From the NCBI RefSeq assembly GCF_000711695.1, contig NW_013547005.1:62001-126000 (forward strand): DNA of 64,000 nt, given 5' to 3'. The position numbers and the translations under genes were made by a program. Origin of the DNA: Tilletiaria anomala UBC 951 (taxonomy: Eukaryota; Basidiomycota; Exobasidiomycetes; Georgefischeriales; Tilletiariaceae). Of this stretch, positions 49,155 to 52,023 are shown one piece after another. Numbering within the stretch: position 1 is the stretch's first letter; each line of letters begins with the position of its first letter. A model generated the notes under the pieces. The model saw only the letters and a list, made by a program, of their open reading frames with translations, had not been told where the DNA came from and did no database searches.

Positions 49155-51108
49155 ATGCCCAGGGAAAGCGCTATCGACCCGGAACGGTACGTCTCGCTCG
49201 GATTGACACACGTCCAGTGTGAGTGACAGGCCACCTGAATGTGCTCGCAGTATGAAGCAAACTCAGGATCGATGACTTATTCTTCACACATTGTATGTGA
49301 GGATTAGATGACGCCGGTGACCCTGCCGCCAAGTTACTCGGGCTAGTCACCTTGTCGCCCATCTTCTTGCTTTGCGCATACGTCACGATCATTCTCTACC
49401 GTCGCGAACTAACTTTTATCAATGCGCTGATAGGCCAGCTTGGCTGCGAAGGACTGAATTGGTTCTTGAAACGGCTGATCAGGCAGCCACGACCGTTTCC
49501 TGGGATGCTTGGGAAAGGCTACGGCATGCCGAGCAGCCACAGCCAATTCGTTGGATTCTTCGCAGCCTTCTTTATCAGCCATTTCTTGCTTCATCACCCA
49601 CAGAAAACCAAGCCTGCAACATTGATCAATACTATGAGAAGAGCTGAGCATGTGGCAGTCATCATCGCTATTGTGTTGCTTTCTGCTCTGACATGCTATT
49701 CGAGGTGAGCGGGAAGTTGTGCTTGCTCCGCGAGCGTGTCAATGCTGATATTTCGGCGTCTCGCAGGTATCATCTCGCCTATCACACACCTGTACAGATC
49801 CTCGTCGGCCTGACAATAGGGGTCGTCGTCGGCGGGGGCTATTACTATCTGACAGAGATCGTCTCTCGTCAGCCTCTGCGTCTACCAGCCCCTCTTGGCT
49901 CACCTACCGTATGGTCCATGTCCAGTTCGCCCATCCTGAGCCGACCGCGGAGCCCTGTGCTGAGCCATGGGAATGCGGCGTTGGGAGCCCCAAAAGACGA
50001 AGGCCTGCGCAAGCGCAGCAACTCAGCGTCCCGTGCGCGAGGTGCGCAATTGTCACGGCGAAAATCGTCGCTCAGCTCGATGCTGCCACCCATACCAGAT
50101 TTGCATCCCGCGCCTCCGCTGAGGCAGATGATTCTGGACCATCCAGTCGCCGTAGCATTCCGCGTTCGGGACAGTTGGACCGTCTGGCGCGACGGCGGGA
50201 TTGAGGGAGAGTATGGGACATGGCGGAGGGAGTGGGAGAGTAGGAGGGAGTGGAGCTGGGACAAAAGCGCGAGCAAACTGTCGCTGACTGCCCGCATGAA
50301 AAGTGGTCTAGCGTTGAAGCCACCGCAGAAGAAGAAAAAGAAGCAGCTGGGTGCCGCTACGGAGGAAGAGGAGGCAGACGTACACTACCAACACATGCTG
50401 CATGCCCTGCGACTTGCCAACAAATGTGAGCCCACGCAGACCGCCTTCTGCGTCGGTTGCATCATCACCGCGCCCTCTCTGAGAGAAACACTCGCGACGG
50501 GTTATTCACGCGAGCTGGAAGGCAACACGCACGCCGAGCAATGCGCGCTCGATAAATTGCAGCGGGAGCTTATATTTGTCGCCGAGAATGAGGCAGAAGC
50601 TGCTGCGGAGATAGCAGAAGAGCTCGCGCTGGATCTGTACACGACGATGGAGCCGTGTTCGGAGCGAATATCGGGTGCGACACCGTGCGTGCAACGGATC
50701 CTTGAGTTCAACCACCAGCGTCGCTACGCCGTCTGGACGGTGGGTGCGGATGCAGACGCACAGCGGTGCTCGCCGCAACCCCAGCAATCTCAACAGGTGC
50801 GCCATCCTCAACGATGCAGCAAATTCGTTCGCCTGCATGTAGCGCGCGTCTTTCAGGGCGTCAGTGAGCCGGACGACTTTGTGCAAGAGTGCCAGGGAGC
50901 ACGTATGCTGCGCGAGCAAGGGATCAGTGTGCAGACTGTACGCGCACGGAAGCCCCTGTTCAGAGTGCAAAATGACCGACAGCAGGGAGAAGAGAGCGAG
51001 AGCGAAGACTGGAGCTGGCTGGAGAAAGAGTGCTTGCGCATCGCCAAGTACGGCCATGCTGACCAGCCGCAGCCTCAGCCTGGCGTAAAGCGGCTGTGGA
51101 TGTTGTAA
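49155..51108 (+). CDS. CAX4: Dolichyl-diphosphatase fused to RIB2-like pyrimidine deaminase
   Basis: The model is join(49155..49218,49308..49704,49767..51108), 600 residues. The N-terminal half is an ER PAP2-family dolichyl-diphosphatase, which recycles dolichyl diphosphate after N-glycan transfer. It shows SLGLTHVQYDAGDPAAKLLG, PIFLLCAYVTIILYR, the KRLIRQPRP and PSSHSQF phosphatase motifs, and SRYHLAYHTPVQILVG; the family ending LDHPVAVAFRVRDSWTVWRD is also present. The same frame then continues through a Lys/Glu-rich linker into a zinc deaminase. That part shows HALRLANKCEPTQTAFCVGC, GNTHAEQCALDK (HAE, about residues 409-411), YTTMEPCSERISGATPCVQR (PCx(8)C-type zinc ligands), RVFQGVSEPDDFVQECQGAR and WLEKECLRIAKYGH. 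These match fungal DRAP deaminases of riboflavin synthesis. No stop, and no splice pair that separates the halves, is visible. Each domain call is strong; that one polypeptide is made is inferred from the open frame. Confidence 0.85.
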
Positions 51109-52023
51109 CACCGGTGACTCTCGTCGACGTCGCCACTGGGTTATGTGGCATTCAAACTGTCACTTAGAAATATATATGAGCACATCTACTCGTACACACG
51201 CGATTGCCGCAGACCACGACCGAACATGGTGTGCATGACGTCTCCTGAAGTCCATTTGGGCCATGCCTGCTCCAGCCTTCTCGGTGCCATGCAAGGTCAA
51301 CGGTATGCATCGCATCGCCACGCCGCGCACTTGGGTCAGATGCAGTTGCACACATAGCGCATGATGCTTGCACCGACAGCGAAGTACGAGAGACAGGCAA
51401 GACCTTTGGCTTGCATGCGACGAGGGGAAGAGGCGACCGCCCTATCTTGTATCGAGGGCGTCGGTGCTACGTGGGCCCGAGGATGCGGGAAGCGCACCAG
51501 GACACTTGACCGCTCCACCATTGCGCTCCTGCCTGTGCTCAGTGCTCCGACGTCTACTGACTCTGGTATGGATCGCCCCTGTAAATTCCATCACACGGCC
51601 ATTTTTTGCGGGGCTCCTCGTGTTTAGTCTCTTTGTCGATCTCCATCCACTATTGCTGACTGCCGCACTGCATGACGGCCGCCACAAACACGCACCCGCA
51701 GGCGACTTTGACTTGTAGTGGTACATCTTCAAAGGACATTTCAACTTGGTGCTTGGCTTCGGCGCTCCGAGTGTCGCCCGACCCTGCTTAGAGGTGCTAT
51801 TGCTATACCTTTCCCCCCTGCCCCTCACCGACACCCCGACTGTGCTGCATTTCTCCCCGTGCTTCATCATTCCTGTCGCCCCTCGCCGCCGCGTCGCGTT
51901 GCCTCTTGTTGCCAGCACGACCCAAACAGCTTTGCTAGCTCTCGCATCTCGTTCCTTGCTCTCTCTGCCTTCCCGTGCCCGCTGCAGAAGCGCTCGCAGA
52001 TCCTAGCCTACTCGCGGCCAAAA
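51109..52023. promoter_or_regulatory. Long promoter region of secreted-protein gene
   Basis: This 915-bp spacer has no convincing gene. From about 51806 to 51990 the plus strand is strongly pyrimidine-rich (CT/CCCC runs), a pattern common just upstream of highly expressed fungal genes. Confidence 0.45.

Follow-up and report, generated by a model that had tools for sequence, protein, structure and literature searches.

A CAX4-type dolichyl-diphosphatase and a Rib2-type deaminase share one reading frame in Tilletiaria anomala and much of Ustilaginomycotina

Introduction

The dolichyl-diphosphatases Cax4/Cwh8 of Saccharomyces cerevisiae and Candida albicans, and their human counterpart DOLPP1, are built on a membrane core carrying the motifs K-x6-RP, PSSH and SR-x5-H, a core that the protein analyzed here has in common with them. 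The active site of yeast Cwh8 is placed in the ER lumen in the relevant passages of PMC12505894 and PMC6829516, and the former reports four predicted membrane stretches for the Candida protein. The second enzyme considered here, the fungal Rib2 deaminase of riboflavin synthesis, is defined by the zinc motifs HxE and PC-x8-9-C (excerpts of PMC8256712). According to the same excerpts, the mould-type Rib2 of Aspergillus oryzae is a free monomeric deaminase, whereas in the fusion the deaminase forms the C-terminus of a membrane protein. They also describe the yeast Rib2 of S. cerevisiae and Ashbya as a bifunctional protein in which the DRAP deaminase follows an N-terminal enzyme from another process, which is likewise the layout of the T. 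anomala fusion, but the yeast partner is a pseudouridine synthase and that of T. anomala is CAX4. In the bacterial RibD/RibG proteins, the deaminase is joined to a reductase of the same pathway, and the order of the steps differs from that of fungi (PMC8256712, same excerpts). Since the yeast enzyme is joined to a pseudouridine synthase, fusion of Rib2 to a foreign partner is not without precedent. The initial annotation of this DNA knew of no described protein combining CAX4 with Rib2; this holds for the open-licence PMC literature, in which no paper describing such a fusion was found, but not for the databases, which do list both domains.

Gene structure and junction

The gene is located at positions 49155-51108 (+ strand) of the window, the 64,000-nucleotide stretch of DNA under analysis, which comes from the yeast-like saprobe Tilletiaria anomala UBC 951 (Basidiomycota, Ustilaginomycotina, Exobasidiomycetes, Georgefischeriales). 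It comprises three exons and encodes 600 residues with a predicted mass of 67.5 kDa, which corrects an earlier estimate of about 66 kDa.

49155..49218, + strand: exon 1, residues 1-21 and the first base of codon 22; a GT-AG intron scan gives a single open join
49219..49307, + strand: intron 1, 89 bases, GTGAGT...GATTAG
49308..49704, + strand: exon 2, bulk of the PAP2 membrane core with motifs C1 and C2
49705..49766, + strand: intron 2, 62 bases, GTGAGC...TCGCAG
49767..51108, + strand: exon 3, remainder of motif C3, last membrane helix, CAX4 tail, linkers and entire deaminase

The spliced product is identical at every residue to the deposited T. anomala protein P0001 (600 aa). The CAX4 tail and the entire deaminase share exon 3, in which the frame meets no stop until 51106. 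An intron hidden across the junction was considered and rejected: chance GT...AG pairs are many, but an intron scan of 50100-50420 listed 15 GT sites that could pair with a downstream AG, and none of them begins GTGAG or GTAAG. The patterns GTGAGT and ATGAGT are absent from the + strand between 49225 and 58173, a search blind to GTGAGC donors such as that of intron 2. When the bases of the 69 junction codons were shuffled 20,000 times, 5.5% of the shuffles remained open. The open junction in the window is by itself weak evidence for a fusion, and the case for a true one rests on relatives. The original proposal that one frame joins a dolichyl-diphosphatase to a riboflavin-type deaminase is confirmed by the spliced gene, by the Pfam domains and by recurrence among these relatives.

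The phosphatase half

The N-terminal half contains a PAP2 domain, followed beyond a linker by a tail typical of CAX4 proteins.

49481..49854, + strand: PAP2 domain, residues 80-183 (Pfam E 6.5e-11), split by intron 2
49469-49495, + strand: motif C1, KRLIRQPRP, in exon 2
within 49523-49546, + strand: motif C2, PSSH, in exon 2
from the end of exon 2 into exon 3, + strand: motif C3, SRYHLAYH
49900..50097, + strand: linker 1, residues 199-264, with pLDDT below 50 at residues 199-253
50098..50241, + strand: native CAX4 C-terminal tail, residues 265-312, with DSWTVWRDGG at 50170-50199

All PAP2 catalytic residues are present (K76-x6-R83-P84, P96-S-S-H99 and S153-R154-x5-H160). Among the 23 named fusion proteins that were aligned, the C1 and C2 residues are kept in 22 and those of C3 in all; the sole exception, P0130 of Malassezia vespertilionis, has a gap at C1/C2, perhaps a fault of the gene model. 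Relatives bearing PAP2, where a function is named, are usually called dolichyldiphosphatase, CAX4 or PAP2-domain protein, these being database names only. A PDB sequence search with this half returned only glucose-6-phosphatase, with E values of 0.071 and 0.19.

A tail resembling D-[SG]-W-x2-W-x-D-[GS]-G is found in 9 of the 11 unfused CAX4 proteins inspected (P0183, P0184, P0186, P0188, P0189, P0192, P0193, P0199 and P0202), where the protein ends within about 35 residues of it; it is missing from P0211 (Fimicolochytrium) and P0215 (Uncinocarpus). Most of the unfused CAX4 relatives listed outside Tilletia are about 220-260 residues long, whereas the fusion has about 290 residues beyond the tail, deaminase included. 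As the tail stands near the end of unfused CAX4 proteins, the deaminase was joined behind a finished CAX4 end. The phosphatase part had been called complete, C-terminal region included, and the three motifs and the DSWTVWRDGG tail bear this out. The motifs and relatives support a CAX4-type dolichyl-diphosphatase as the identity of this half, with hydrolysis of dolichyl diphosphate as its putative activity, carried over by analogy from yeast Cwh8.

The deaminase half

A second linker leads from the tail to the deaminase.

50242..50376, + strand: linker 2, residues 313-357, holding Met331 (50296-50298), with pLDDT below 50 at residues 327-348
50377..51105, + strand: Rib2-type DRAP deaminase, residues 358-600
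50857-50880, + strand: GVSEPDDF, with E521

Two Pfam deaminase families match this part, PF00383 at residues 360-472 (E 4.1e-11) and PF18785 at residues 386-473 (E 1.1e-29). The zinc motifs are H409-A-E411 and PC-x9-C, with nine residues between C451 and C461. In the PDB, the only sequence matches are the A. oryzae Rib2 entries (7dry, 7drz, 7ds0 and 7ds1). F26, N59, H61, A62, E63, E100, C102, R105, S107, C112 and E136 of the A. oryzae enzyme are all retained, and the identities with its substrate-binding residues comprise F381, N407, H409, E411, E449, R454, S456 and E521, the last being placed through a second HMMER stretch of the PDB sequence search that is weak on its own. Two substitutions, both conservative, separate the proteins at these sites (T53 to S401 and L106 to I455). 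H409, E411, C451, C461, N407, R454, S456 and E521 are kept in 23 of 23 named fusions; the position of T53 is Ser in every one, and that of L106 is Leu in 21, Ile in T. anomala and Gly in one. The deaminase half also conforms to the fungal Rib2 fold. The description of a complete zinc deaminase of the fungal DRAP type, with HAE, PC...C and GVSEPDDF, is upheld by residues conserved throughout the fusions. Most of the VIA rows listed are deaminases, and the absence of a dolichyl-diphosphatase structure from these rows carries no weight. A scan with NCBIfam gave weak matches only, far under the cut-offs, the best being bacterial RibD.

That PF18785 (Inv-AAD), a family named for AID/APOBEC, outscores PF00383 could be taken to mean that this half acts on another pyrimidine or on nucleic acid and not on the DRAP substrate. 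However, PF18785 is also the top deaminase match in all 10 relatives scanned, A. oryzae Rib2 is the sole PDB sequence match, the PC-x9-C spacing is retained, all 23 fusions keep the mapped substrate residues save for the Ser found throughout at T53 and the Ile of T. anomala at L106, and no other Rib2 candidate was detected in the genome of T. anomala. We regard such a different substrate as highly improbable, and the sequence comparisons support a Rib2-type DRAP deaminase as the C-terminal half.

Antisense to the deaminase, an open frame of 201 residues (window 50506-51111, minus strand) is probably a by-product of codon use.

Other copies and riboflavin genes in the genome

The genome of T. 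anomala (18.4 Mb, 202 contigs) was searched with protein queries, by a method that scores only the top candidates from a preliminary pass. The fusion used as query found only its own gene, save for one match at E 0.17. An unfused CAX4 of Rhizoctonia (P0183) and an unfused deaminase of Rhodotorula (P0114) likewise matched only the fusion gene, at E values up to 1. The initial annotation had asked about a second, stand-alone CAX4 or RIB2 gene, and none was found with these queries. A genome scan with the Pfam PAP2 model picked up four other loci, with five matches in all, and missed the fusion gene itself, in which the domain is split by introns, so the copy count relies on the protein-query searches, in which the exons of the fusion gene were recovered. 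PF00383 matches six further loci; at five of these, the cysteines in the frame read are spaced as PC-x2-C or C-x2-C, which is not the Rib2 spacing, and at the sixth (L006) they belong to an exon beyond the part read.

The genome contains the families of Rib1, Rib7, Rib3 and riboflavin synthase, so that the deaminase step has a use in T. anomala. For lumazine synthase (PF00885), it yielded no match at E values up to 10, a miss that may come from introns or an assembly gap, or else from real absence. The pseudouridine synthase family PF00849 has no match in the fusion protein at E 0.1, and its one match in the genome lies elsewhere (L019, C41).

Distribution among relatives

Both Pfam domains are found in 41 of the 83 listed homologues of the full protein, and at least eight further two-domain proteins stand among the best 120 of 571 homologues listed. 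The named fusions belong to Ustilago, Sporisorium, Moesziomyces, Kalmanozyma, Melanopsichium, Testicularia, Thecaphora, Violaceomyces, Ceraceosorus, Microstroma, Sympodiomycopsis, Parajaminaea, Exobasidium, Meira and Malassezia, in addition to Tilletiaria. Of the 23 named records aligned, 22 come from Ustilaginomycotina and one is labelled as a fern. A domain-architecture check for PAP2 plus deaminase across Ustilaginomycotina had been suggested, and the fusion indeed recurs over much of this subphylum. The fern record (P0045, Adiantum nelumboides) is nearly a Meira sequence over the aligned stretch and is probably fungal contamination of the fern assembly. The fusion of Moesziomyces antarcticus (P0017) carries the source name 'RNA pseudouridylate synthases', which it probably received from yeast Rib2 via its deaminase half.

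Adjacent fungal genes do get merged in gene models, and a missing stop or a merged model could in principle have produced the frame at this locus. One such merger may be P0044 of Tilletia controversa, a partial record of 700 residues in which CAX4 is followed by a pyridine-nucleotide oxidoreductase, either as merged neighbours or as another fusion. At the T. anomala locus, however, the junction lies within one exon in the raw DNA, and the same order, tail and catalytic residues recur in 23 named proteins and in metagenome proteins. With the single junction exon and this recurrence, an artefact of assembly or gene model is ruled out for practical purposes.

Tilletia (Exobasidiomycetes, Tilletiales) has separate CAX4 proteins (P0034, P0180, P0181 and P0182; also P0044) and deaminases (P0084, P0086, P0087 and P0088). 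Separate proteins in relatives, which the initial annotation had paired with an assembly artefact as grounds for doubt, do therefore occur, but the artefact itself is contradicted by the recurrence and the one exon. Among the matches listed, the deaminases of rusts, red yeasts, mushrooms and moulds bear no partner domain, nor do the CAX4 proteins of mushrooms and moulds. In trees of the single domains, the fused proteins together with those of Tilletia split from the outgroups, with support of 99/97 for CAX4 and 96/99 for the deaminase. The deaminase tree, which bore a long-branch warning among the outgroups, places Tilletia within the fused proteins, beside Ceraceosorus (98/93), and the CAX4 tree puts it in an unresolved fork with the fused proteins except the Malassezia-like ones. 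Constraining the fused proteins to a clade without Tilletia cost 13.7 log units for the deaminase (p-AU 0.034, rejected) and 7.0 log units for CAX4 (p-AU 0.13, not rejected). The simplest reading of these trees is probably a single early fusion in Ustilaginomycotina, undone later in Tilletia. The latter genus shows that at least one lineage can do without the fusion. In Tilletia horrida, CAX4 (P0182) and the deaminase (P0088) are listed with the same 17,027-base longest contig, a hint that the two genes lie close together.

Joining of a Rib2-type deaminase to other proteins was also observed outside the CAX4 fusions. In P0058 (759 aa), such a deaminase is C-terminal to a RanGTP-binding domain (PF05508), and in P0179 (480 aa) to a precomputed PF26545 region, each case being one small cluster. 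The PF26545 region of P0179 was not recovered by a Pfam rescan or a PDB search; we take this N-terminal region to resemble the ERMES protein Mdm34. By their domain order, P0058 and P0179 suggest that the Rib2-type deaminase has repeatedly been appended to other proteins.

One protein or two

In the structure model, the PAP2 helices and the deaminase are of high confidence and the linkers of low confidence. The predicted disorder of the linker would suit a deaminase that is also, or mainly, a separate product, whether through an internal start, a second promoter or cleavage of the linker. Met331, whose codon is at 50296-50298 (previously given as 50297), could start a complete deaminase in T. 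anomala, and Tilletia manages with separate proteins. Internal initiation at Met331 had been put forward as the main alternative to a single chain. This proposal is weakened by the occurrence of Met331 in T. anomala alone among the 23 named fusions, in 19 of which the stretch linking the CAX4 tail to the deaminase lacks any Met, and by its place in the spliced message, behind 16 ATGs, start included, of which 7 are in frame. Moreover, the base at -3 is C for Met331, as against G for the start at 49155.

A start at the Met within the first deaminase helix (column 364), present in 20 of the 23, is harder to discount and could give a product short by a few residues, but this Met may be retained for the sake of the helix itself, and the Ceraceosorus fusion lacks Met throughout columns 265-368, which cover the tail, the linker and the first deaminase helix. 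A Met also falls within the CAX4 tail in 7 of the 23. Initiation at such codons could give a trimmed or tail-bearing internal product. The metagenome proteins P0033, P0041 and P0053 start inside CAX4 and run via the tail into the deaminase, in the manner of unspliced frames. Altogether, a separate deaminase product appears unlikely, and the one-protein reading is held slightly less firmly on account of the Met at column 364.

Topology and proposed mechanism

Hydropathy indicates four clear membrane stretches, at about residues 32-50, 98-116, 134-152 and 157-175, and the structure model has five core helices, the fifth being 56-78 and the last in the chain 162-188. With either helix count, C1 and C2 fall between two stretches, C3 falls between two others further on, and the chain crosses the membrane only once more after C3. 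As a consequence, the C-terminal part should lie on the opposite side of the membrane from C3. If the protein is oriented like yeast Cwh8, the phosphatase site is expected to be lumenal and the deaminase cytosolic, in the compartment expected for riboflavin synthesis.

We infer that the message is translated as a single chain with both activities, and consider it likely that the product of this locus is a single bifunctional protein of the ER membrane, derived from an early fusion that was split in Tilletia, with its deaminase tethered to the membrane. In the proposed mechanism, the CAX4 half, the only one detected in the genome, would hydrolyse in the ER lumen the dolichyl diphosphate left by N-glycosylation. 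Past helix 162-188, the chain would reach the cytosolic face, where the CAX4 tail, the disordered linker and the deaminase would follow one another. There, the Rib2 half, also the only one detected, would convert DArPP into ArPP for riboflavin synthesis. The deaminase would have been added behind the tail of an ancestral CAX4 at an early stage of Ustilaginomycotina, with the two probably separating once more in Tilletia. As a likely effect, the deaminase would be anchored at the ER surface in equal dose with the phosphatase, for which no catalytic link between the halves would be needed.

A possible link through the riboflavin phosphatase step

Fusions often link consecutive steps of a pathway, and this general knowledge favours a different relation between the halves, in which the PAP2 half dephosphorylates ArPP and serves as the fungal riboflavin phosphatase, alone or beside its dolichol role. 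The initial annotation considered the two pathways unrelated, but thereby overlooked that the step after Rib2 is the dephosphorylation of ArPP to ArP, for which passages of PMC12542839 (2025) and PMC8955749 (2022) name no fungal enzyme, calling it unknown in fungi. Other substrates are conceivable for enzymes of the CAX4 type, as Cwh8 of C. albicans acts on farnesyl diphosphate (excerpts of PMC12505894). Nevertheless, helix 162-188 parts C3 from the deaminase, so that a cytosolic deaminase implies a lumenal phosphatase site; the catalytic motifs are of the usual CAX4 type; the Arabidopsis enzyme is HAD-like and HAD candidates have been proposed in a yeast (sections of PMC8955749); and Tilletia dispenses with the fusion. 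As the two sites are expected on opposite sides of the membrane, ArPP phosphatase activity of the PAP2 half is rated very unlikely. There is equally only a slim chance that this half is the missing ArPP phosphatase or belongs to a site at the ER surface where ArPP is handed over for dephosphorylation. Of note, in a screen of Aquifex for the riboflavin phosphatase, one membrane phosphatase went unscreened for want of expression (excerpts of PMC12051542, which by its title identified the phosphatase).

Implications

Records named only 'dolichyldiphosphatase' mask the RIB2 function, and the deaminase may thus be wrongly reported missing from genomes that encode it within the fusion. The fusion also offers a concrete protein with which to test the riboflavin phosphatase step. 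Were the PAP2 half to act on ArPP, the fusion would join two consecutive steps and the CAX4 family would gain a second role. If the preferred reading of a single chain is correct, riboflavin synthesis and N-glycosylation would depend in these fungi on the same gene, at the same dose and at the same membrane, and knockouts of the gene would be interpretable only when the two domains are separated.
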